Source: a virus
Reading direction: 5' to 3' (one strand)
Length of the DNA stretch: 23,263 bases
IMG/VR virus record: IMGVR_UViG_3300042402_004225
Location: 1-23,263 of that record
Shown here: one piece after another, positions 5,668 to 22,560 of the stretch
Position numbering within the stretch: position 1 is the stretch's first letter
Layout: each line of letters begins with the position of its first letter
Made by a program: the position numbers and the translations under genes
The notes under the pieces: generated by a model
What the model saw: the letters and a program-made list of their open reading frames with translations, nothing else
Databases searched by the model: none
What the model was told of the DNA's origin: nothing

Positions 5668-6324
5668 TTAATGAGAGTTAACAAAGTTGACGGTGTTGAA
5701 TAATTTATAATCAGGTTGCAAGTAATCCATTAATTTATCTACTCTAGATGCATTTTTAACATCCGACAAGTAGTCAATCAATCTTTTATAATATATGTTT
5801 AGTTTTTCTGTTTCGTTAACTTTTGCATTAGTAAAGTGACTGATTACATTATTAGTACCGATCCAATGGTTAAGTGCATCTCCTAATCTATCAGTCATTT
5901 TAATAAAACTAATATTTTCTATACCTAATTCTTCAATGTGATATTTGATTTGATTATACTGTAAATTAGTATGACTATCAAATTTTAGAATATCTTTATC
6001 AAATAAAAAATCAAAAAACCAATATGCGTTTGAATTAATAAAAATATCTTCTAAATCTTTCCTATTTTGTTTTTCTGCCTCATGAGTGCAATAGGCATGT
6101 AGATCAGTTTTAAATCCACTTAACCATCGTGAGTATGGGTCTCTTAATATCGCAAATCGTTTTATCTTTTTATCTGACATTAATACCGGCTGATATTGCC
6201 ATCCCCACTTTTTGACATTTTGAATAAAGTACGAACTGCTATTTTTTAAAATTGGTAAATTTTGAATCCTGTTTGTAGGATCAATCCACCCTAGAGATAC
6301 TGTGTATCCCGGTTGATCATTCAT
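5668..6324 (-). CDS. Sulfotransferase-like protein A
   Basis: PAPS-dependent sulfotransferases move sulfate to hydroxyl or amino groups of sugars and other acceptors. This 218-aa protein has a degenerate 5'-phosphosulfate loop, LPILKNSSSYF (about 23-33), and a clear 3'-phosphate motif, RFAILRDPYSRWLSGF (56-71, with Arg61 and Ser69). The open frame reaches a TTG at 6336, but the ATG at 6324 aligns with the second sulfotransferase-like protein of this window (MNDQPGY against MQDQGYY), so I chose it. It overlaps the small coiled-coil gene by 8 bases. The rest is AT-rich in codon choice and Asn/Lys-rich compared with the polymerase, which may reflect separate acquisition. Substrate unknown. Confidence 0.7.
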   Translation of the reverse strand: MNDQPGYTVSLGWIDPTNRIQNLPILKNSSSYFIQNVKKWGWQYQPVLMSDKKIKRFAILRDPYSRWLSGFKTDLHAYCTHEAEKQNRKDLEDIFINSNAYWFFDFLFDKDILKFDSHTNLQYNQIKYHIEELGIENISFIKMTDRLGDALNHWIGTNNVISHFTNAKVNETEKLNIYYKRLIDYLSDVKNASRVDKLMDYLQPDYKLFNTVNFVNSH

Positions 6325-6529
6325 CCCCGTATCCAATTCGTTGTGTATCTTCTTCCCATTGTAGTCGATTTAGTTTACTAATTTCATCTTTAATTAGCAA
6401 CTTTTTCTTTTTCAATTCAGCAAGATGCTCTACATCTACACCTGGATGATTGGTTTGCATTTCGTTAATTTGTTTATCGAGTAGGCGATGCATTTCTTCT
6501 AAATGTTGAATACGGCCTTTGTATGACAT
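6317..6529 (-). CDS. Small coiled-coil protein, DUF465/YdcH-like
   Basis: The 70-aa product is almost wholly helical and charged: HLEEMHRLLDKQINEMQ, then HPGVDVEHLAELKKKKLLI and KDEISKL. The pattern of an H-x-x-LD-x-x-I helix, a short turn, and L-K-K-x-KL-x-I-KDEI is that of the YdcH/DUF465 family of small alpha-hairpins, whose role is not established. It lies 3 bases after the DpdA-like gene and overlaps the sulfotransferase-like gene. Confidence 0.68.
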   Translation of the reverse strand: MSYKGRIQHLEEMHRLLDKQINEMQTNHPGVDVEHLAELKKKKLLIKDEISKLNRLQWEEDTQRIGYGDE

Positions 6530-6532
6530 GTA

Positions 6533-8209
6533 TTACTCCTCTTCAAATAAATTTGGTAATAAAATTGGTTTAGGTTGTTCTTTTTTAATCTTTTCAACCT
6601 TAACAGATCCCTCAATATCTAAATGCTGGTTAGCCATAGTAAAAGAATTAGTAGTTTTTTCTCCTTTAAATCCTCTAGTGCCTACAATTTGTTCCCAATA
6701 TCCTTTGGGTCTTGCATATTTGTCATCATTGACAATTGCCATTGCAGCTTCTCGAGTGGTAGCCGCAAATATACGTTCAACAATGTCTTCAAAATATTCA
6801 GCATCAACATGATCATGCCTCATCATTGCTGGGTGAGAACCAGCATCAAATTCTCTATTAGCACGTTGCACACTTTCAATATGAGTCCATACATTATGTC
6901 CCATCATCAATGCATAACTAAAGCTATCCCACGATGTCTTGCCTTCTTTGCCATTTTTATTTAGGTCGCCGGATTTGTATATACAAACATCTTTGATCTG
7001 AAGATGTTGGCTAATTGGGCTTTCGTCAAAATGATCAAAAATTCCATCTTGTAGTACAGCATCTCTGAATGTTCTAGTATCTGTTGCGTATTTTTTATCA
7101 TCAGCACTGGGACTCATTCTATATGACCATTTGCCTTCGTGTGTTAAATCAATTTGATGATACATTTGTCCATTTGCAGTGGCTAGAAAAGGACTTGCAC
7201 AGTCAAAACTTATTGTGAAGTTTGGATTAACGTATTTACGAACAGCACGTTGAATCACTGTAAGCAATACTGCCCATTCTAATTTACTTGTGCCTAGGAA
7301 GTGCATCCAATCGTGAACACCTTGTTGTAGTAGATTGTCATAACGCAAAGCAATTAATCGTTTTAATACAAGATGTACATCACACATGTTTTGCCCGCCC
7401 ATGGCCCAACCATCAAAGTGAGTGTCTGGGTATTTGGCAGGATCACAGAACTCTTTCATTTCTTCGTACCACTCATCTGCACTGGTATGATTGTCACCTT
7501 GTAAAACATTTAAGAATTTTGCACCACCGTTGTTTTTACCTTTACGATGAGCCATAAAATACAAGTTATTAAACTTGGTGGCGTCAACTGCTTCTTGTAA
7601 TGTAGTAATACCGCAGGCACGACTGGCTTTTTTATCGTGAATGACCCAAGTTGGAATATCAAGAATCATACCGTAATCAGCAATGCCGTCTAGCCATTTG
7701 AGAACACTATCTCTTTTCTTTTGTGCAGCGTCTAATAATTTTTGATAATCTTTCAGTGGATCTACTGTCACTACCTTGCCTTTTTTATTTGTCACAGTAG
7801 TGGTTCCCTGTGCAGCAAGATCTTTTAGTTTTTGCTGAACTTCTGCACTGGTTGGGTCTCTCCATTCACCTTCCCACAAGCCTTTGGCAATCTGGAATCC
7901 ACCTGAGTCACCTAACATAAAAGTACCCGGCTCACGTTTACGTACCATGTCTTCACTGGCATCTTCTTTAGTTAAATCTAAGTTTGCGTGTCCGCCTGAG
8001 TACAGACTCCACCGATAAGGAAATAAAGCTTTTTGACTGTTTAACCAGTTCATTTGCTCCATGTCTTGCATGCCCTGTGGCATACGAGCAGGATCAACAT
8101 AGTCATTGTTAACACGTTGTTTTCCTATAAAAGTTGCGTAAAATCCAGATATGGCAGGTAAAAACACTGCATAGTCTAATTGTTTGCTAGTTAAGTTATC
8201 TTGGGTCAT
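6533..8209 (-). CDS. dpdA: DpdA-like DNA 7-deazaguanine transglycosylase (TGT fold)
   Basis: The tRNA-guanine transglycosylase fold exchanges guanine for a 7-deazaguanine; DpdA members act on DNA. Numbered from the ATG at 8209 (558 aa), this protein has GDSGGFQIAKG near 100-110 (substrate-aspartate motif), ILDIPTW near 182-188, FLNVLQGD near 232-239, FDGWAMGGQN at 265-274 (the GYAIGG equivalent), a FLGTSKL segment near 304, and ISFDCASPF near 333-341 with the likely nucleophile Asp336. The CxCxxC zinc site of bacterial TGT is absent. The frame extends to a TTG at 8221, but the ATG is preferred; it overlaps the sulfotransferase-like stop by 14 bases. The C-terminal ~20 residues (KEQPKPILLPNLFEEE) form a charged tail, discussed under findings. 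FolE and a QueD-like protein downstream support a DNA-modification role. Confidence 0.8.
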   Translation of the reverse strand: MTQDNLTSKQLDYAVFLPAISGFYATFIGKQRVNNDYVDPARMPQGMQDMEQMNWLNSQKALFPYRWSLYSGGHANLDLTKEDASEDMVRKREPGTFMLGDSGGFQIAKGLWEGEWRDPTSAEVQQKLKDLAAQGTTTVTNKKGKVVTVDPLKDYQKLLDAAQKKRDSVLKWLDGIADYGMILDIPTWVIHDKKASRACGITTLQEAVDATKFNNLYFMAHRKGKNNGGAKFLNVLQGDNHTSADEWYEEMKEFCDPAKYPDTHFDGWAMGGQNMCDVHLVLKRLIALRYDNLLQQGVHDWMHFLGTSKLEWAVLLTVIQRAVRKYVNPNFTISFDCASPFLATANGQMYHQIDLTHEGKWSYRMSPSADDKKYATDTRTFRDAVLQDGIFDHFDESPISQHLQIKDVCIYKSGDLNKNGKEGKTSWDSFSYALMMGHNVWTHIESVQRANREFDAGSHPAMMRHDHVDAEYFEDIVERIFAATTREAAMAIVNDDKYARPKGYWEQIVGTRGFKGEKTTNSFTMANQHLDIEGSVKVEKIKKEQPKPILLPNLFEEE

Positions 8210-8816
8210 TGTAAAATTCAATACTGTTTATAAATTCGTAATCTTCTTTATAAGCCTGTACTACTCGTGCTTTTAAATCTGGATTGTTTGTAATTTGTTT
8301 TTTGATAAATTTTGATACTTGTTCAGTATCGTAATTGGATTCAGATTTATTGGCATCAACTATACTAGTTGTATTTAGATCTTGTCCAAGAAACGAATTA
8401 ATTTGCGGAATTAAATTCTCGTTATAACGAATGAACACAGGATTATAATCAAGTATTTGTTTAACGTATTTTACTTGATGATCGGTATGATCGTCAAATA
8501 TTACTTGATCGAAGATAATTCGTTTTGTTAGATCGTTGTAATCTTCGACAAAGTGATCACTACCGTATCCATAACCAAACAAATGTAGTGCAGCATAGGT
8601 AGCAAAACCACTGATCCATCGATCTATTGGATCGCGAATGAATGCTATTGTGGTTTTAATATCAGAGGAATTTTCTAAGATATTCCAGTGTAGCCAATGA
8701 TTTTCTTTTAGTACATTGGTCAAGTATGTACTTGCGTTCTTTGGAATATTTAGATAAAATATTTCCCGATTTGGGGATAGCATCCCTCCACCGGGGTAAT
8801 ATCCTTGATCCTGCAT
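8196..8816 (-). CDS. Sulfotransferase-like protein B
   Basis: The 206-aa protein carries a better-kept sulfotransferase signature than its relative further along: YLNIPKNASTYLTNVL (about 21-36, 5'-phosphosulfate loop) and IAFIRDPIDRWISGF (57-71, 3'-phosphate motif). The shared N-terminal layout (M-x-DQ-x-Y, then the loop about 25 residues in) indicates the two genes are paralogues that now flank dpdA. Its ATG shares one base with the clamp stop codon (TAATG), and its 3' end overlaps dpdA, so it is read with both. The acceptor is unknown: cell-surface sugars, virion glycans or a DNA adduct are all possible. The family also includes sequence relatives whose activity is untested. Confidence 0.75.
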   Translation of the reverse strand: MQDQGYYPGGGMLSPNREIFYLNIPKNASTYLTNVLKENHWLHWNILENSSDIKTTIAFIRDPIDRWISGFATYAALHLFGYGYGSDHFVEDYNDLTKRIIFDQVIFDDHTDHQVKYVKQILDYNPVFIRYNENLIPQINSFLGQDLNTTSIVDANKSESNYDTEQVSKFIKKQITNNPDLKARVVQAYKEDYEFINSIEFYNDPR

Positions 8817-15935: not shown

Positions 15936-16370
15936 CTATTTAAGTGTACTACGTAGCATCCAAGAATGTTTTTTGTGTGCGTCCTGTCTACCGGCCAAGA
16001 AATCACTTAGACCGTGTAGACCCAATTCTTCGCTAGCATTGAATACTATACGAAACATTTCGGCCATTTTTTCACTGTCTTCGAACAATTCCATGAGCAT
16101 GGCTTCAGCCGGTAAAATTTCAACTTCATCGTCTACTAGGCTAAGGATGCTGAAACGTGTAAACGAGCCCGGAGTGTATGTGCCAGTTGCGCGAATTTCT
16201 TCAGCAAAGGTATCTATACTACCATATACTTCTTCGTAGATTTTACCAAACAAATCGTGCAGCTGAGGAAAATTGGGTCCTTCAACATTCCAATGAAAAT
16301 ATTGTGCTTTCAAATAAAAAGCAAATTCGCTAGCAAAAGCAATTTTTAGTGCTCGTTGTAATTCATCCAT
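15936..16370 (-). CDS. Dps-like ferritin (DNA-protecting ferroxidase)
   Basis: Dps proteins form 12-subunit shells that oxidise and store iron with peroxide and protect DNA. The 144-aa product is within the family range and carries the inter-subunit ferroxidase residues at the exact family spacing: His26 (YFHWNVEG), His38, Asp53 and Glu57 (SIDTFAEEIRATG). The C-terminal SDFLAGRQDAHKKHSWMLRS helix is also typical. The N-terminal Lys-rich DNA-binding tail of E. coli Dps is missing, so DNA binding is uncertain. An AAGG ribosome site precedes the ATG, and a GATAAATA late-type element lies 19 bases upstream. Protection of packaged or replicating phage DNA from oxidative damage is the likely purpose. 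Confidence 0.9.
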   Translation of the reverse strand: MDELQRALKIAFASEFAFYLKAQYFHWNVEGPNFPQLHDLFGKIYEEVYGSIDTFAEEIRATGTYTPGSFTRFSILSLVDDEVEILPAEAMLMELFEDSEKMAEMFRIVFNASEELGLHGLSDFLAGRQDAHKKHSWMLRSTLK

Positions 16371-16567: not shown

Positions 16568-17251
16568 CTATTTAAACGTTTTACTTTTTCCGTAGTGCTC
16601 ATCATTTTGATTAGATTTTTCGTACATAACAGTGTCTGTATCGCCTAAACGCCATTTGGGGTTTTGCTCTACAACATATTTCTTGGTACATACTTTAAAA
16701 TCTGGAAACTTCATTTCTTTGGGATTACTGGCAGCATCGAAGAACAAACAACGGTTGTTTGGTTGTGCTGCATATTGTCCATTATCTAGTTCAATGAAAT
16801 TGAAACTTTTGTGATCTTCGGGCCATTCGCTATATCCTGTGTCAATCAAGTTATGGTCAGGATGCCCGTGGTCCACAGTAAACAGGTAATTACCTGAATA
16901 CATATTTTTATCTTTGGCATAGAATTGGCAGCTGAGGTTCTTTAAAAAACTTTTTTGAATTATGGTCATATTGTAATCAAAACAATCCCATATCTGCAAC
17001 GTGTCTAAAGATAAAAACTTTGTAGGGTCAAGATTCTCTTTGCGTGATACAAACGCATGGAGAGGTAGTTTGTCATAAAGTGCGCCATAATTGGGTAAGT
17101 AAGATTCTATTCTGAAAGCCTGTCCTCGAATACTTTTGATTGAAACCCATATACAGGGTTCGTATTCTCTGTGACCTTTTTGAAAATCGTAAAGAAATTC
17201 TCGTCGAATATAACAGTGTACTGGTGGTGTGTTTGCAACTAGAAAACTCAT
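16568..17251 (-). CDS. Conserved phage protein, 227 aa, function unknown
   Basis: No family recognised. The product is soluble and rich in aromatic residues and cysteines, with blocks such as HCYIRREFLYDFQKGHREYE, IESYLPNYGALYDKLPLHAF, FTVDHGHPDHNLIDTGYSEW and FDAASNPKEMKFPDF. The HGHPDHN cluster could bind a metal, but no known enzyme signature surrounds it. Similar unknowns occur in T4-like marine phages, to my recollection. Its ATG shares one base with the stop of the 813-aa gene (TAATG), so the two are translationally linked and made together. Confidence 0.78.
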   Translation of the reverse strand: MSFLVANTPPVHCYIRREFLYDFQKGHREYEPCIWVSIKSIRGQAFRIESYLPNYGALYDKLPLHAFVSRKENLDPTKFLSLDTLQIWDCFDYNMTIIQKSFLKNLSCQFYAKDKNMYSGNYLFTVDHGHPDHNLIDTGYSEWPEDHKSFNFIELDNGQYAAQPNNRCLFFDAASNPKEMKFPDFKVCTKKYVVEQNPKWRLGDTDTVMYEKSNQNDEHYGKSKTFK

Positions 17252-19692
17252 TATCGCCTTGGGCCAAATAAACGGTTTATAATACTGACGTTTTTGCTGC
17301 TTGGATCTTGATTGCCCCTTACCAAGTTTGTTAGTTCTTGATTAACGGCATTTTCTACATCATACCGATCCATTTTAGATAAGTTTGTGCCAACACGCAA
17401 TGCACCCAGGGCCTGAGCTGCAGGATGTGGTTGCTCTCTTGGACCCGGGTCAGTGATTGTTGGTATTTGTTCAGCCACTGGTTCTGGCGGCATCATGCGT
17501 TTGATATCGGATTTGTTGAGATTAGGTGGGCCATTTGCTGCACCATACTCATCTACTTTTTTTTTAATTGGCACGCAATTATTGACTCGAACATCGCCTT
17601 TCATTTTAGTGCCGGCTTTACGATAACCTTTCCAACACTTGGGATCCAATCTAGTTTTTTCTTCAAGAATGTTATATCCGGCACGTTCTAATTCTTCGAT
17701 ATAACGCTCGACGTCTTCGTTAGTGACTTGAGATTTTTCTTCTTTTGGTTTATCTACGACTCTCACTGATTTTATCTTACGCAACGGATGATTCAATTGA
17801 TAAATTGTTGCTGCACTCTTCGGATCAACAGGGGCTTTCTCTCCAGCTTTGTCCGGCCTCGATATTTGATAATCTTTTTTACCATTACCGAGATCAAATT
17901 CATATTTTACCGATCCATCACTGGTGGCTTCGCCAAAACGATCTCTGTAAGTGTTGGCCTTCATGCTATTTTTAGATCCAATTACAGCATGTCCTTCGCC
18001 GCTTAACAGCAAGTCGTACATCAATTTAATAACTTTAAGCGGGCTATCCATTCTTTCTAGTGCCGCTCTAAACCATTCAACCTTTTCTGGCTTCATTGGT
18101 TTAGCACTAGGCTTGCTAATCAATTCAAATGCCAAAGTTTTTAATGTAGGTAAATCTCTTATTCTTTCAAGTTTTTTGAGATCTTCAACGTCAAAATTAA
18201 CTTCTGGCTTACGTGCTTCTTTGACTTGATATTTTTTCTTAAGTTCTGCTGCCTTGGCATAACGCTCTTGGTCAGGAAGATCGTATGTGGCCCGTAGTTC
18301 TTTGTAGTAGTCGGGATTGGGTAAACCGGACTTCTTTCTTAATTCTTGATGACGACGATGTAGCTTGTCTTGTATCGAACCTTCCGCCACACCTTGCTCA
18401 TCTAAACCTTTTTTTCGTAGTTCCTTGTTGGCCGCAGCCCAATTAACTTCATTTCTACTCTGGCTTATTCTTGATGGGGCGACACCGTAAGTATCTCCCT
18501 TCACTGTCTTAGTATGTTTGGCGATAATTTGTTGTCGCTCTTGTTCTCTTTTTTGTTGTCTGTATCGACGCATTTGCTCTTCACCTTTGGCAGTAAGTTT
18601 ACCATCAGGTCCAGTATCTAGTGTGTCGCCTTCCGCCACACCTTGTTCTTTAAGTCCTTTTGCTTTGGCTTCTCGATCTAAATCTAATCTACGCTGTTGT
18701 ACTGCTTGCTGATCAACATTTGGGTCCAATGACAGATCATGAATCACTTTTCTTTTGGCATCATAATCGCCTTGTGGATCCTTTGGATTGAGAGCTGTCT
18801 CCGCCACACCTTGCTCGTCTTTAGTATCAACTTCTACTCGTTTGGCAGTTCCTGTAGTATACCCTTGTTCAGCACCGTAAGCATATTTTCCAAGACCAAA
18901 TACATAACTCACCCAACCATCATATTCTGGATCATTGCCCTGGACCATAATTAAATCATCAATGTCTACTATATCACCTATTGCTTCAACCCACTTCATT
19001 CCGAGTTGTTCTAATTTAACTGGACCTTTGTATCCACGCTGTTTAAGAATCTTGGCAAGATTCATGTCAAATTGTTGACTGGAGCCTTCTTGTACAGGTT
19101 GGTCTGCATATTGCCCAAAGGACTTTTGTTGTTGTTGATAATTTGCTGCTCGCTCGGCGTCAGTGTATCCTTGTCCGGATGCCATTCTTTGGCCATAATC
19201 GGCCATTTTTTCAGGAGTCCAATTTTGTGCTTTGTAGTTGGCCATGTTTTGTTTATAGTCGGCACTGGACATGCTACCTATCTTGGATATACGTGTGCTA
19301 CCATCTGCCTGAGTTTTTGCTTCCCACCCTTGGGGTACATTAAGTGGCGGAGCCTGTTCGTCTACGCCTTTGTCTTTTTGTGGTTTAGGTACAGTACCAG
19401 TTGGCATACCACGTGCTGCATCTCTTGCAGTGTCAATTACCTGTTTACCAACCTTGGTAGCAGTGTTTACTAAATCATCTTTGCTGTCTGGTACAGTGCC
19501 AGTCGGCATACCACGTGCTGCATCTTGGGCTGTGCGAAGTACTTTTTCAGGAACATCAAGAATGTCAAGAATACCACCTGCTTCTGATACGTCTTTTTCT
19601 TTAGGGGGTTTAGGAGTTGGTGCTCGTGGTATCTCGGGAATATCAAATCCGCCTTCGTTTAATTTTTTCTTAAAGATATCGTTAATAAACAT
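17251..19692 (-). CDS. 813-aa modular, repeat-bearing, probably head-packaged protein
   Basis: This large hydrophilic protein reads as a chain of short modules. It starts MFINDIFKKKLNEGG, like a T4-type capsid-targeting peptide with a Glu-Gly cut point. A 12-residue unit DAARGMPTGTVP occurs twice (57-68, 91-102). EQGVAE occurs at 293-298, 349-354 and 432-437, with a related PVAEQ near 738. Between the sites lie compact segments, among them about 206-276 and a helical module at about 497-588 (DVEDLKKLERIRDLPTLKTL onward). A Cys-containing block follows (682-709, LDPKCWKGYRKAGTKMKGDV then VNNCVPI), a type I recall from many T4-like phage proteins. No enzyme motif is seen. It follows the 294-aa gene by 4 bases. 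Cleavage into several mature peptides is inferred. Confidence 0.8.
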   Translation of the reverse strand: MFINDIFKKKLNEGGFDIPEIPRAPTPKPPKEKDVSEAGGILDILDVPEKVLRTAQDAARGMPTGTVPDSKDDLVNTATKVGKQVIDTARDAARGMPTGTVPKPQKDKGVDEQAPPLNVPQGWEAKTQADGSTRISKIGSMSSADYKQNMANYKAQNWTPEKMADYGQRMASGQGYTDAERAANYQQQQKSFGQYADQPVQEGSSQQFDMNLAKILKQRGYKGPVKLEQLGMKWVEAIGDIVDIDDLIMVQGNDPEYDGWVSYVFGLGKYAYGAEQGYTTGTAKRVEVDTKDEQGVAETALNPKDPQGDYDAKRKVIHDLSLDPNVDQQAVQQRRLDLDREAKAKGLKEQGVAEGDTLDTGPDGKLTAKGEEQMRRYRQQKREQERQQIIAKHTKTVKGDTYGVAPSRISQSRNEVNWAAANKELRKKGLDEQGVAEGSIQDKLHRRHQELRKKSGLPNPDYYKELRATYDLPDQERYAKAAELKKKYQVKEARKPEVNFDVEDLKKLERIRDLPTLKTLAFELISKPSAKPMKPEKVEWFRAALERMDSPLKVIKLMYDLLLSGEGHAVIGSKNSMKANTYRDRFGEATSDGSVKYEFDLGNGKKDYQISRPDKAGEKAPVDPKSAATIYQLNHPLRKIKSVRVVDKPKEEKSQVTNEDVERYIEELERAGYNILEEKTRLDPKCWKGYRKAGTKMKGDVRVNNCVPIKKKVDEYGAANGPPNLNKSDIKRMMPPEPVAEQIPTITDPGPREQPHPAAQALGALRVGTNLSKMDRYDVENAVNQELTNLVRGNQDPSSKNVSIINRLFGPRR
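18383..18813 (-). repeat. Three EQGVAE-encoding repeats
   Basis: The 14-base sequence CAAGGTGTGGCGGA occurs three times in the minus strand at 18396-18383, 18645-18632 and 18813-18800, each in the same frame and coding QGVAE with its flanks. Two copies share the longer KGL-x-EQGVAEG context. Identity of synonymous positions points to recent copying or gene conversion rather than protein-level convergence. Confidence 0.8.
19388..19525 (-). repeat. Imperfect 36-base direct repeat inside the 813-aa gene
   Basis: Copies at 19388-19423 and 19490-19525 match at 34 of 36 bases, 102 bases apart and in frame, giving the duplicated DAARGMPTGTVP unit. Both mismatches are silent, which indicates selection on the peptide after duplication. 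Confidence 0.85.
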
Positions 19693-19696
19693 ATTT

Positions 19697-20581
19697 TTAC
19701 GCCTGTCCTCGTATTCCTGCTATCTGTGACATGAGATTTTCAATCTCTCTACCTAGTGCTACTTTTTGTGCCTGCAATTGTTGCAAGCTCATTGTTTTTT
19801 CTACTGGATTGGCACCTTGTGGAAACTGTTTGTTAATACCTGCTAGTTCTGCTCTTTTTCCGTTTACCTGGGCCACTAATCCTTGCGCTTGATTGTCAAG
19901 ATCTCGTTTGCCTGCAACCTGTTGTGCTCGTTGAGCAGCTATTTCTACCGGATCAGCATCGTCATTGCCTGGACCTACGGCTGTGCCTGCTGCACCCCAT
20001 TCAGCTATTTGTAGTTCTACTTCTTGTTCTTCATCTACACTTTGTTTTTTAGGTACTTGGTTATAATCATTTACAGCTTGTCTTATTCCTGCTTTTTGTT
20101 GAGGAGAAATTGGCGTTGTTTGCCGCTGCTGTTCTTTGCCATAGTTGCCTGATATATCTTTTACATCTTTACGTATTTGTTCTCTTTGCCCTTTTTTAAT
20201 GTCTTTAGCTACTTCTACTTCATCAAAAGGTCTTGGAATCGAATCTAAGGCAGCACCAAGTGCGTCCCTTGTGGCCCCGCCAGCCGAAATAATTTTATCA
20301 GCTGCTGATTTAACCGTATCATCAAATCCTTCTTTGAATTCTGCCCATTCATGAAACAAATCTCTTTTTACTGGGTCACTGTTGATAACTGTGGTTAACT
20401 CTTTTAACAAGTTTTCAGAGCCTTCATTTGCGCCAACCAATCTACCAGCATACGGATGCTTTTTGCTACCGCCCTTTTTAGGCATAGGCTCGCTGCCGCG
20501 AACTTGGTCGCCAGGTTTTTGGCCTACCTTTTCCCCGGCAAACTGATTCATCTTCTCAAGTAAATGGCGCATGTCGCTCAT
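19697..20581 (-). CDS. Hydrophilic, low-complexity, probably virion-internal protein, 294 aa
   Basis: No enzymatic family recognised. The N-terminus MSDMRHLLEKMNQFAGEKVG is a short amphipathic helix ending near Glu, followed by a basic linker and the block KKHPYAGRLVG, which I recall from other T4-like phage proteins. The middle (about 66-140) is helical and charged; the sequence VELQIAEWGAAG near 190 contains an I-A-E site of the prohead-protease type. The C-terminal third is Gln/Ala-rich coiled coil (SLQQLQAQKVALGREIENLM). It shares one base with the 246-aa gene (TAATG) and precedes the 813-aa gene, so the three are one unit. Role as a head-internal protein is inferred. Confidence 0.72.
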   Translation of the reverse strand: MSDMRHLLEKMNQFAGEKVGQKPGDQVRGSEPMPKKGGSKKHPYAGRLVGANEGSENLLKELTTVINSDPVKRDLFHEWAEFKEGFDDTVKSAADKIISAGGATRDALGAALDSIPRPFDEVEVAKDIKKGQREQIRKDVKDISGNYGKEQQRQTTPISPQQKAGIRQAVNDYNQVPKKQSVDEEQEVELQIAEWGAAGTAVGPGNDDADPVEIAAQRAQQVAGKRDLDNQAQGLVAQVNGKRAELAGINKQFPQGANPVEKTMSLQQLQAQKVALGREIENLMSQIAGIRGQA

Positions 20582-21321
20582 TAGTATACGCCTTTTCCTA
20601 CATTAATTTTTTTAGGCTTGTGAGCATTGGCAATCTTCTTTGGCTTGCCTGTCCCAGGCTTGCCGGCTGGACCGGCCATGCTGGTTGCCATTCCGCCGGA
20701 ACTACTGGCTCCGGCACTGGCCATTTCATTTACTTGTTCAGTATCATCCTTTGGTTTGTAAGGAGTATTTGTAGTCACATCAAACCCTATACCTTTATCT
20801 CTGCGTACAGTACCAGCTGGTCCCATATCATACGAAACAGATTGTACTGTACTCTGATCCGGGCGTTTGGTTTGTGATACACTTAAATCGCCTACGTTGT
20901 AATTAGTTGTTGTTGTACCGGCTTTAGCATCTGTAGTTTTATTCATTCCACCAACAGTTGGTGTTGTGGTGGTTTGTTCTTTCATTTTTTTATTTGCTTT
21001 TTCGACCAACAATTTGTCCAATGCATATCCAGCAGCATCTTCAGCAAACACAGTCATTTCTGATTGCTGACTGACAGCCTCGTATTTCATGTAATCGCGC
21101 ACACTTTCTAGGTATTGGCTAGCAAGAGTCAATTTACTTTGTACCCAACCCTCTAGACCTTCCATTTCACTGATGTCTTTTAACAAGCGATGGATTTCAA
21201 TAGCTGCTTGTGCTGCGCTGTACATTTGACTACGAGCCATTTGTACTTCATGATCTCGATGCATGTCATCTGCTTCTTGTGCAATTATGCTGTTTTCTAC
21301 TATAAATTCTGTTGTTTTCAT
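20581..21321 (-). CDS. Probable capsid-targeted internal protein, 246 aa
   Basis: The N-terminus MKTTEFIVENSIIAQEADDM resembles the T4 internal-protein targeting peptide (IPIII begins MKTYQEFIAEA, from memory), with possible protease cuts after Glu9 or Glu16. A helical domain follows (about 20-85: MHRDHEVQMARSQMYSAAQA, LLKDISEMEGLEGWVQSKLT), of a type I recall in marine phages. From about 115 the protein is Thr/Gly/Ser-rich and disordered. It ends in a basic tail (GKPKKIANAHKPKKINVGKG) suited to nucleic-acid contact. AAGG lies upstream of the ATG, and an ACTAAATA late-type element 22 bases upstream. It heads the 246/294/813-aa unit. Confidence 0.75.
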   Translation of the reverse strand: MKTTEFIVENSIIAQEADDMHRDHEVQMARSQMYSAAQAAIEIHRLLKDISEMEGLEGWVQSKLTLASQYLESVRDYMKYEAVSQQSEMTVFAEDAAGYALDKLLVEKANKKMKEQTTTTPTVGGMNKTTDAKAGTTTTNYNVGDLSVSQTKRPDQSTVQSVSYDMGPAGTVRRDKGIGFDVTTNTPYKPKDDTEQVNEMASAGASSSGGMATSMAGPAGKPGTGKPKKIANAHKPKKINVGKGVY

Positions 21322-21351: not shown

Positions 21352-21655
21352 AATTACAAGCAAAGGTCCATTGCTTGTTATCGTATCCATCTTTACCTGG
21401 TTGTTTGGGCATTTCTGCATTGTCTACTCGCAATTTAAGTAGCTGGAAATTTCCACTATTGGAGCAATTTTCTAATTTTATACAATGTACTCCGGGTGCC
21501 AAATCACAAACTACATTTTCTTGTATGTAGTAATCGTAGCCAGCATAACCAAATGTACGTTCAGTAATCAAATCGTCGTCTACATAAATTCTATAAACAG
21601 GAGGCTCACCGCTCCAATGGCAATGCACATCGAAGCGTAGCATTCTGTTAAACAT
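21347..21655 (-). CDS. 102-aa beta-rich phage protein
   Basis: The product is predicted as a small beta-sandwich: MLRFDVHCHWSGEPPVYRIY, DDDLITERTFGYAGYDYYIQ, VCDLAPGVHCIKLENC and FQLLKLRVDN read as alternating strands, like carbohydrate-binding-module or virion-decoration folds. The plan (strand, VDDDLI turn, response strand, PGVH-x-I-x-LEN) resembles that of the 160-aa protein at 22590-23072 (ISINGTVVVHNK, EGDNTLEISLLNK), suggesting distant kinship. Its ATG shares one base with the nucleotidyltransferase stop (TAATG). Role unknown; a virion surface protein is a reasonable guess. Confidence 0.72.
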   Translation of the reverse strand: MFNRMLRFDVHCHWSGEPPVYRIYVDDDLITERTFGYAGYDYYIQENVVCDLAPGVHCIKLENCSNSGNFQLLKLRVDNAEMPKQPGKDGYDNKQWTFACNY

Positions 21656-22560
21656 TATTTTTTCCTACCTTGACAATGAGCCCGCTGACTAAACCCTTGT
21701 GGGCTATTGCAATTGATACTGCGTTTGTATTTTGCGCTCCACTTTTCTTTTAGTGTATCTACTTCCTCTTTTAGTTTTTTGTAGCGTTTGGTCAAATGAT
21801 ATCCGGCCATCATCTTGGGTAATGTGGCAGCGGTAACGTCGTTGTCATCCCCCATTGTGGCCATAACATATCGAGGATCTTTACTGTTCTTAACTACACC
21901 TACACCAGTAGCATCTTCGGCTACAGTTTGTGGAATTTTATCTAGCACACGCCCTAGTTCAGCATCGTCTCTACCGTACATCTGCATCAAGAATTCGCTA
22001 CGCCCTTTGGGATCATTACGAACAGCGTTCCACGCAGCTCTAGCAGGAGTACCGTGACTTACATCTACTTGTTTTCCGTTAATGGTAATAACTTTTTGAC
22101 GCTCATCTGCAATGATCACATAACCGTGTTTGTCAGCAGTTGTGCATTTATCAAGGCTTTCAAACGTTTTAAAGTATCCTGGAGTACCATCTTTTTTAAC
22201 GCTGTCGGGACGTAGTCTGTCTCTGTCAGGTGCACCAACTGCTGCTATAAAGATAGTGTTGGCAGGATTAAAAGGAGGTTCTGGTAGTTTGTATGGATTA
22301 GTGACTTCAATGATGCGATCGCCGGGTATACCAGCAGCATTCATGAATACTGTTTTGTCGCTAAAATTAAAAGGACTTTTGGGCTGTTCTACCTTGTTGC
22401 TGGTAGCAATAAAAACATTGTCGCGCCCGAACTTGTTTTGCAGGCTTTGGAATACTTCCCTGTGCCCAAGATGAAAAGGTTGAAAACGGCCCGGGTACAG
22501 TACAACTAACTCCAGGCCGGCTTCTGCTACATAACTTTCAAATAAATCAGCAATAAACAT
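21655..22560 (-). CDS. HIGH-superfamily nucleotidyltransferase with capsid-targeting-like N-terminus
   Basis: Enzymes of this superfamily (NMN, pantetheine-phosphate and cytidylyl transferases) move a nucleotide onto a phosphate. The core motif is GRFQPFHLGH (24-33), followed by the FIATSNK strand (50-56) and a SPFNFSDKTVFM segment in the substrate-loop position. The 301-aa length is larger than NadD/NadM (~170-210). The extra N-terminal MFIADLFESYVAEAG resembles the T4 Alt leader (MELITELFDED, from memory) with a V-A-E/A cut point. The extra C-terminus ends INCNSPQGFSQRAHCQGRK, a block I recall from several T4-like phage proteins. An AAAT-rich leader precedes the ATG with no strong Shine-Dalgarno. 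NAD-related activity is possible but not proven. Confidence 0.8.
   Translation of the reverse strand: MFIADLFESYVAEAGLELVVLYPGRFQPFHLGHREVFQSLQNKFGRDNVFIATSNKVEQPKSPFNFSDKTVFMNAAGIPGDRIIEVTNPYKLPEPPFNPANTIFIAAVGAPDRDRLRPDSVKKDGTPGYFKTFESLDKCTTADKHGYVIIADERQKVITINGKQVDVSHGTPARAAWNAVRNDPKGRSEFLMQMYGRDDAELGRVLDKIPQTVAEDATGVGVVKNSKDPRYVMATMGDDNDVTAATLPKMMAGYHLTKRYKKLKEEVDTLKEKWSAKYKRSINCNSPQGFSQRAHCQGRKK

Follow-up and report, generated by a model that had tools for sequence, protein, structure and literature searches.

The 813-aa protein and its candidate cut sites

A 23,263-base virus record (the window, i.e. the whole stretch of DNA that was analysed) encodes an 813-aa protein in which the hexapeptide EQGVAE occurs three times, which raises the question of what this motif does in the protein and why its DNA is repeated. 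The ORF (17251..19692; this gene and all features within it are on the minus strand) is read here as a modular, putatively CTS-tagged precursor of internal proteins, i.e. a polyprotein, and its segments resemble different relatives. A Pfam search with the protein gave no match, and its PHROGs matches were to unnamed families only. EQGVAE lies at residues 293-298 (18799..18816), 349-354 (18631..18648) and 432-437 (18382..18399). A preliminary description of the locus had claimed that the same 14 bases occur three times in frame, coding QGVAE at about residues 294, 350 and 433. The exact positions bear this out: CAAGGTGTGGCGGA is present in exactly three copies, every one in frame (18800-18813, 18632-18645 and 18383-18396), encoding Q-G-V-A-E at residues 294-298, 350-354 and 433-437, and E precedes each. 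In a protein of this composition about 1e-4 occurrences of EQGVAE are expected by chance. The codons of the motif are unusual as well: of all Val codons in the window 15% are GTG, and of all Ala codons 7% are GCG.

Copy 1 is followed by T (EQGVAE/T; the slash marks a predicted or known cut) and copies 2 and 3 by G. Related viral stretches, designated with L, contain parts of the same protein in other settings. Copy 1 begins a module that is matched alone in L010, L117 and L025, the module of residues 349-438 at copy 2 is matched alone in L029, and the junction at copy 3 reads EQGVVE/GS in L002 and GIDE/GS in L003. Related sites had also been announced near residues 199-203 and 738-741, and these were located as PVQE/G (VQE, residues 200-202, 19087..19095) and PVAE/Q (VAE, residues 739-741, 17470..17478), both in low-confidence linkers of the structural model. 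The sites listed in the preliminary description were thus correct, but the list was incomplete, as three more candidate cuts are present. LNE/G (residues 11-13) ends the CTS-like N-terminal segment MFINDIFKKKLNE/G (residues 1-13, 19654..19692). VSE/A (residues 35-37, 19582..19590) is of the form [LIVM]xE, and L004 has GVAE/G at the same junction. VKE/A (residues 490-492, 18217..18225) corresponds to KGVAE/G in L009 and to QVKE, KVQE, EVDE or GLGE elsewhere.

The helical module that follows VKE/A (NFDVEDLK..., residues 493-590, 17923..18216; pLDDT mostly 75-86) stands behind differing upstream modules in L009, L012, L014-L018 and L025, and the CWKGYRKAGTKMKG.RVNNCVP module (residues 677-714, 17551..17664) is matched in dozens of relatives and in cyanophage isolates. 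Single modules are matched alone at residues 296-349 (L010), 349-438 (L029), 435-490 (L031) and 490-588 (L009). For the window protein with the CWKGY module excluded, 24 of 60 alignment end points fell near predicted cuts, compared to 5.9 by circular shift (P=0.003); when this much-repeated module was included, clustering of end points at the cut sites was not significant for the window protein alone (P=0.33). A 65-base direct repeat inside the gene (19388-19452 and 19490-19554, 78% identity) encodes DAARGMPTGTVP twice.

An AlphaFold2 model of the protein, built from a 12-sequence alignment, had a mean pLDDT of 51.7 and was therefore read locally only. The model starts with a helix at residues 3-12, with low confidence after it, and in a PDB fold search it gave no match with E<=0.001. 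Eight of eight candidate sites lie in segments with pLDDT <50 (as do 56% of all residues), between better-defined helical units. Such probably flexible segments are what would be expected if QGVAEG were a flexible linker in an intact multidomain protein, spread by descent with shuffling and never cut, and shuffling alone would explain the spread of its DNA. This explanation is nevertheless unlikely in view of the junctions and N-termini described below.

QGVAEG is a DNA-locked seam of module shuffling

The 18-mer CAAGGTGTGGCGGAAGGC is present in at least 120 viral stretches. Relatives L002-L081 were collected without the motif as bait (of the six bait peptides only EVDTKDEQ overlaps a site), and together with the window they contain 55 distinct GVAE sites. 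Many of the contigs are fragments. Loci were drawn from overlapping sets and reduced by dropping repeated contexts; the P-values given here assume independent sequences, an assumption that related phages violate. A 21-mer version of the motif had 2 matches among 84,980 cellular genomes, neither of them phage-like by eye. In long contigs the copies stand in few clusters, nearly all on one strand, and a backwards control pattern is nearly absent from these contigs. Although each frame of the 18-mer is open, the GVAE-reading frame of the longest ORF is the one in which the core GGTGTGGCGGA always lies (282 of 282 distinct copies). A chance or compositional repeat was ruled out by this count, together with the low chance expectation and the two cellular matches. 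No mention of QGVAEG was found in the literature searched.

At the 55 unbiased sites GVAE is written with GTG in 45 and with GCG in 46 cases (background 21% and 8%), and GTY or GCY codons were found at none of them. The codon preceding GVAE ends in A in 54 of 54 cases, over Q, K, E, R, L, P and V (38.7 expected, p=1.5e-8). Val at other VxE[GASDN] sites has normal codons (GTG 49/422), by which ordinary codon bias was ruled out. Judged by its codons, the motif is clearly locked at the DNA level, and the locking of both GVAE and the preceding codon argues that the GVAE allele is copied as DNA. Conservation does not extend past about 20 bp around the motif.

The flanks of the motif behave differently. 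Among pairs drawn from 356 sites, 76 were alike upstream only, 60 downstream only and 2 on both sides, and at the motif an identity of about 85% gives way to one of about 28%. In a partly trimmed set of 318 sites, 98 informative pairs were discordant at the motif and 1 was concordant, compared to a discordance of 6-57% at pseudo-seams 70-180 bases away; a motif at random chain positions was ruled out by this control. Unrelated modules are joined in varying orders within chains. As judged from these alignments, the motif is the seam of module shuffling, and homology on one side stops exactly there. The earlier proposal that modules are shuffled and the site is copied at DNA level, for which a comparison of homologous modules from other phages around the repeat had been suggested as a check, is borne out by the break in homology in 98 of 99 informative pairs and by codon locking. 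The spacers had been described as modules cut into peptides; they are indeed separate modules, but with a median spacing of 79 aa between sites (5-95% range 52-267) the products would be like small domains and not peptides. By all appearances, the QGVAEG DNA phrase is a module-swap joint in many uncultured T4-like aquatic phages, the word aquatic being based on their relatedness to cyanophages.

The 18-mer could also be chiefly a DNA element, i.e. the target or footprint of a homing endonuclease, a recombinase or another mobile element, with coding as a secondary matter. Codons locked even at neighbouring residues, homology that breaks exactly at the motif and free-standing HNH-like genes seen by eye in these genomes would fit such an element. 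This is very unlikely, since every copy uses one of three open frames, copies are confined to few clusters and almost always to one strand, conservation ends about 20 bp out, and homologous junctions are served equally by [LIVM]xE sites with other codings.

Homologous junctions keep a prohead-protease-like signature

Modules that follow GVAE somewhere were compared with homologous module starts without GVAE, which gave 578 junctions. Exactly at the junction, 49.8% had Glu at P1 and 39.4% had [LIVM]xE, a pattern that most other offsets showed in about 3%; about half of these junctions have no Glu at the exact position. Within two residues of the junction, [LIVM]xE was found in 344 of 578 cases, compared to about 61 in random controls (highest 79). 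Enrichment at P3 was 6.4-fold for V, 4.3-fold for M, 3.3-fold for I and 2.8-fold for L. Conservation of [LIVM]xE at the seams is evident from these alignments. That junctions without GVAE keep [LIVM]xE specifically, and not a generic linker composition, speaks against an uncut linker, as do the enriched CTS-like and capsid-junction-like N-termini and the Tat signals behind sites.

An aliphatic P3 together with Glu at P1, as found at the seams, is a feature of the gp21 class. In the parts of the literature consulted, T4 gp21 is described as cutting after L/I-x-E (PMC9026906), and the phiKZ and SPN3US proteases as cutting after S/A-x-E and A-x-E (PMC9026906, PMC5694885). The restriction of P3 to L or I, as in T4, does not hold here: V is the commonest P3 at the seams and, as the T4 rule is L/I-x-E, represents an extension, which gp21 of these phages would have to accept. 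Peptidase_S77 gp21 (PF03420) was found in 15 of 26 long relatives; none was shown in the other 11, whose contigs may be fragments. All 15 printed sequences contain the Ser motif (SSRGSG), and 14 of them, all but L231, whose printed ORF begins at a later Met, contain the His motif (DHP). In 15 of 15 relatives the major capsid protein has a junction of L-x-E followed by S, N or A, with P3 always L. The idea that V-A-E is a prohead-protease site, already put forward in the preliminary description, has thereby gained strong but indirect support from the [LIVM]xE junctions, CTS starts, gp21 and Tat signals, with the reservation that V at P3 goes beyond the T4 rule. Cleavage at the seams by gp21 is strongly suggested.

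Another protease, either a host Glu-specific enzyme or another phage peptidase, might cut these sites instead, or they might be cut in the host cytoplasm after delivery. V at P3 lies outside the T4 gp21 rule, and for polyvalent proteins of other phages processing by metallopeptidases has been proposed (PMC5512222). We regard this as highly improbable, given the T4-gp21-like P3/P1 pattern, the enriched CTS and capsid-junction N-termini and the presence of gp21 in 15 of 26 long relatives.

Putative head-targeting N-termini and Tat-type signals

T4 IPII starts with MKTYQEFIAE/, and a GenBank record of it marks these 10 residues as removed. The N-terminus of the window protein resembles this propeptide: where a T4-type CTS is a peptide of about 10 aa ending in L/I-x-E, MFINDIFKKKLNE/G has 13 aa, and N-termini related to it were found on other motif genes. 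Two neighbouring genes on the minus strand have similar starts. A 246-aa protein (20581..21321) begins with MKTTEFIVE/N, which fits the T4-CTS-like pattern, and a cytidylyltransferase-like protein (21655..22560; Pfam PF01467, phrog_395) begins with MFIADLFESYVAE/AG and has internal VAE/D and TLKE/KWSAKYK junctions. No head genes were found within the 23-kb window, a contig that may be a fragment. A Dps/ferritin-like gene (15936-16370) adjoins the modular gene, and similar-looking genes lie close to motif genes in seven relatives (L234, L238-L241, L244 and L246). Two further genes of the window (5668-6336 and 8196-8816), possibly sulfotransferase-like, are alike by eye (FAILRDPYSRWLSGF, IAFIRDPIDRWISGF).

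T4-CTS-like starts were detected in 26 of 115 motif genes and in 136 of 1459 others (p=5e-5), and starts like the capsid-protein junction (xLE/SATAGAT) in 8 of 115 and 5 of 1459 (p=6e-7). Both kinds of start are fused in some genes (MRATEFIIEGVAEG, MRINEILVEQGVAEG). Of about 259 starts of the form M[RK]xx[DEQNK][FIL], 135 have E as residue 9, and P3 is mostly I, L or V. Capsid-junction-like starts of motif proteins were seen in L033:6244, L035:6239, L038:5790, L064:1511, L121 and L138; in one example VYTLE/SASAGATGAGAIAT of a motif protein compares with RKYLAE/SATAGATAASNVAT of a capsid protein. Putative CTS-like sequences include MFINDIFKKKLNEGG and MRAKEFITE. The N-terminus MRA[KRNT]EF[ILV]xE is common to dozens of unrelated small ORFs in L025, L034, L036, L041, L055, L094, L108 and many other relatives, which putatively form a large class of capsid-targeted proteins without the QGVAEG motif.

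Twin-arginine signals function only at the N-terminus. Genuine-looking signals of this kind (RRGFLKGLGAAA...) were found a few residues past GVAE in five proteins, directly past GVSE or LDE in three more places and past the Glu of the CTS in three small proteins. Directly behind a cut site, a Tat signal would become N-terminal only if cleavage occurs. Tat-type signals behind predicted cuts were observed in ten relatives (L036, L094, L108, L123, L163, L190, L193, L232, L238 and L243). Uncharged 14-residue stretches just past the sites numbered 11 compared to 4.2 expected (p=0.002). When signal peptides were sought more strictly, by hydrophobic windows above a high threshold, there was no enrichment behind the sites. 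By their N-termini the motif proteins look head-targeted, and the placement of the Tat-type signals is an independent hint of cleavage.

Module content and cultured phages

In the Pfam tally of 72 motif proteins (alignment A1), GNAT, dCMP deaminase, Pol-beta, SutA-RBD, RMF, LysM, ParB and NT5C domains were identified, TAT_signal occurred in 4 of 72, and no peptidase family was present. The matches to SutA (its RNAP-binding domain), RMF (ribosome modulation factor), dCMP deaminase, ParB nuclease and NT5C each come from single modules of this set. PADLOC gave single-member matches to PDC-S09 models only.

The same kinds of module are carried by the cultured cyanophage proteins Syn9 gp114, Bellamy 123, S-SCSM2R_176 and S-SRM01 QPX48171, where module borders include EEVKE/GWSDKYK, KKLKE/DWQKVN, GEVIDE/KCWDGY and LQGVDE/SAAA. 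GGYGTRGCRGAR is absent from those genomes, and QGVAEG DNA was found in 0 of six cultured or published phage records; the allele was seen here only in uncultured phages. Modules bounded by [LIV]xE are thus more widespread among T4-like cyanophages than the QGVAEG allele. As an indirect indication of packaging, the cyanophage cytidylyltransferase T4-GC190, which starts with MKSFSQFLTE/T or MKKFSAFLTE/A, was detected in S-SM1 virions (PMC3037559).

Discussion

The most probable explanation, in our view, is that these genes encode CTS-tagged modular precursors of internal proteins, that gp21 cuts these precursors at [VLIM]xE, and that QGVAEG is an allele of the site which is copied as DNA and serves as a recombination seam. 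Such a gene would be a cassette of exchangeable proteins packaged in the head. One translated chain would be brought into the prohead core by its N-terminus acting as a capsid-targeting sequence, and a prohead protease of the T4-gp21 type would cut after [V/L/I/M]-x-E at the module borders. The freed small domains would remain associated with the DNA and be delivered into the next host, like the T4 internal proteins; their packaging in the head is likely on this model, and their injection is a more tentative extension of it. QGVAEG would be the commonest DNA allele of the cut site. Its position between modules would supply roughly 18 bp of common sequence for in-frame recombination, and because every exchange through the seam copies this sequence, its codons would stay frozen while the flanking modules are unrelated. 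It counts against this model that only 26 of 115 motif genes have a strict CTS-like start and that 136 non-motif genes have one too. The 11 long contigs in which no gp21 was shown, the window without head genes, the capsid junctions with L alone at P3, the homologous junctions without Glu at the exact position, the end-point test that failed with the CWKGY module included and the poor structural model weigh in the same direction.

T4 IPI, IPII, IPIII and Alt likewise have a short N-terminal targeting peptide ending in [L/I/V]-x-E and diverse proteins behind a conserved tag, and T4-type head genes (gp68-like, gp21, gp22, gp23) are present in the relatives. For the T4 internal proteins, however, a single N-terminal propeptide is described, whereas here each chain combines several modules, the internal sites are repeated, P3 is most often V, and one allele of the site is frozen as DNA and forms a recombination seam. 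Polyvalent proteins (Iyer et al., 2017, PMC5512222) share with the motif proteins multidomain shuffled architectures with several unrelated domains per chain, virion delivery by inference and similar kinds of domain (GNAT, Pol-beta nucleotidyltransferase, ParB-like). Their processing is presumed to depend on embedded metallopeptidase or assemblin-like domains, whereas the short repeated motif would suit a protease acting in trans; no such embedded domain was found in the Pfam tally of the 72 motif proteins, and a metallopeptidase is present in about 36% of polyvalent proteins and so is not universal in that class (PMC5512222). The T4 core proteins gp22 and gp67 and the head proteins of phiKZ and SPN3US are also cut after x-x-E, with several cuts per chain and peptides left in or lost from the head. 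In contrast, these are scaffolds and propeptides, and module swapping through the cut site is not described for them in the portions of the literature consulted.

If the precursor model holds, the [VLIM]xE seam rule, with QGVAEG as its visible allele, would split a large pool of unannotated phage proteins into functional units and would predict which proteins go into the head. Among the modules are host-directed activities, namely acetyltransferases, nucleotidyltransferases and RNA-polymerase- and ribosome-binding domains. The locus would also be a concrete case of a processing signal that doubles as the joint for exchanging modules, and cultured cyanophages bearing the same modules could be used to test it. 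A further suggestion, for which we see somewhat less than an even chance, is that the 18-bp QGVAEG is a dual device, both a protease cut site and a selected recombination seam, which builds in-frame combinations of head-delivered effectors. In that case phages would have their own version of exon shuffling, with products that release themselves.
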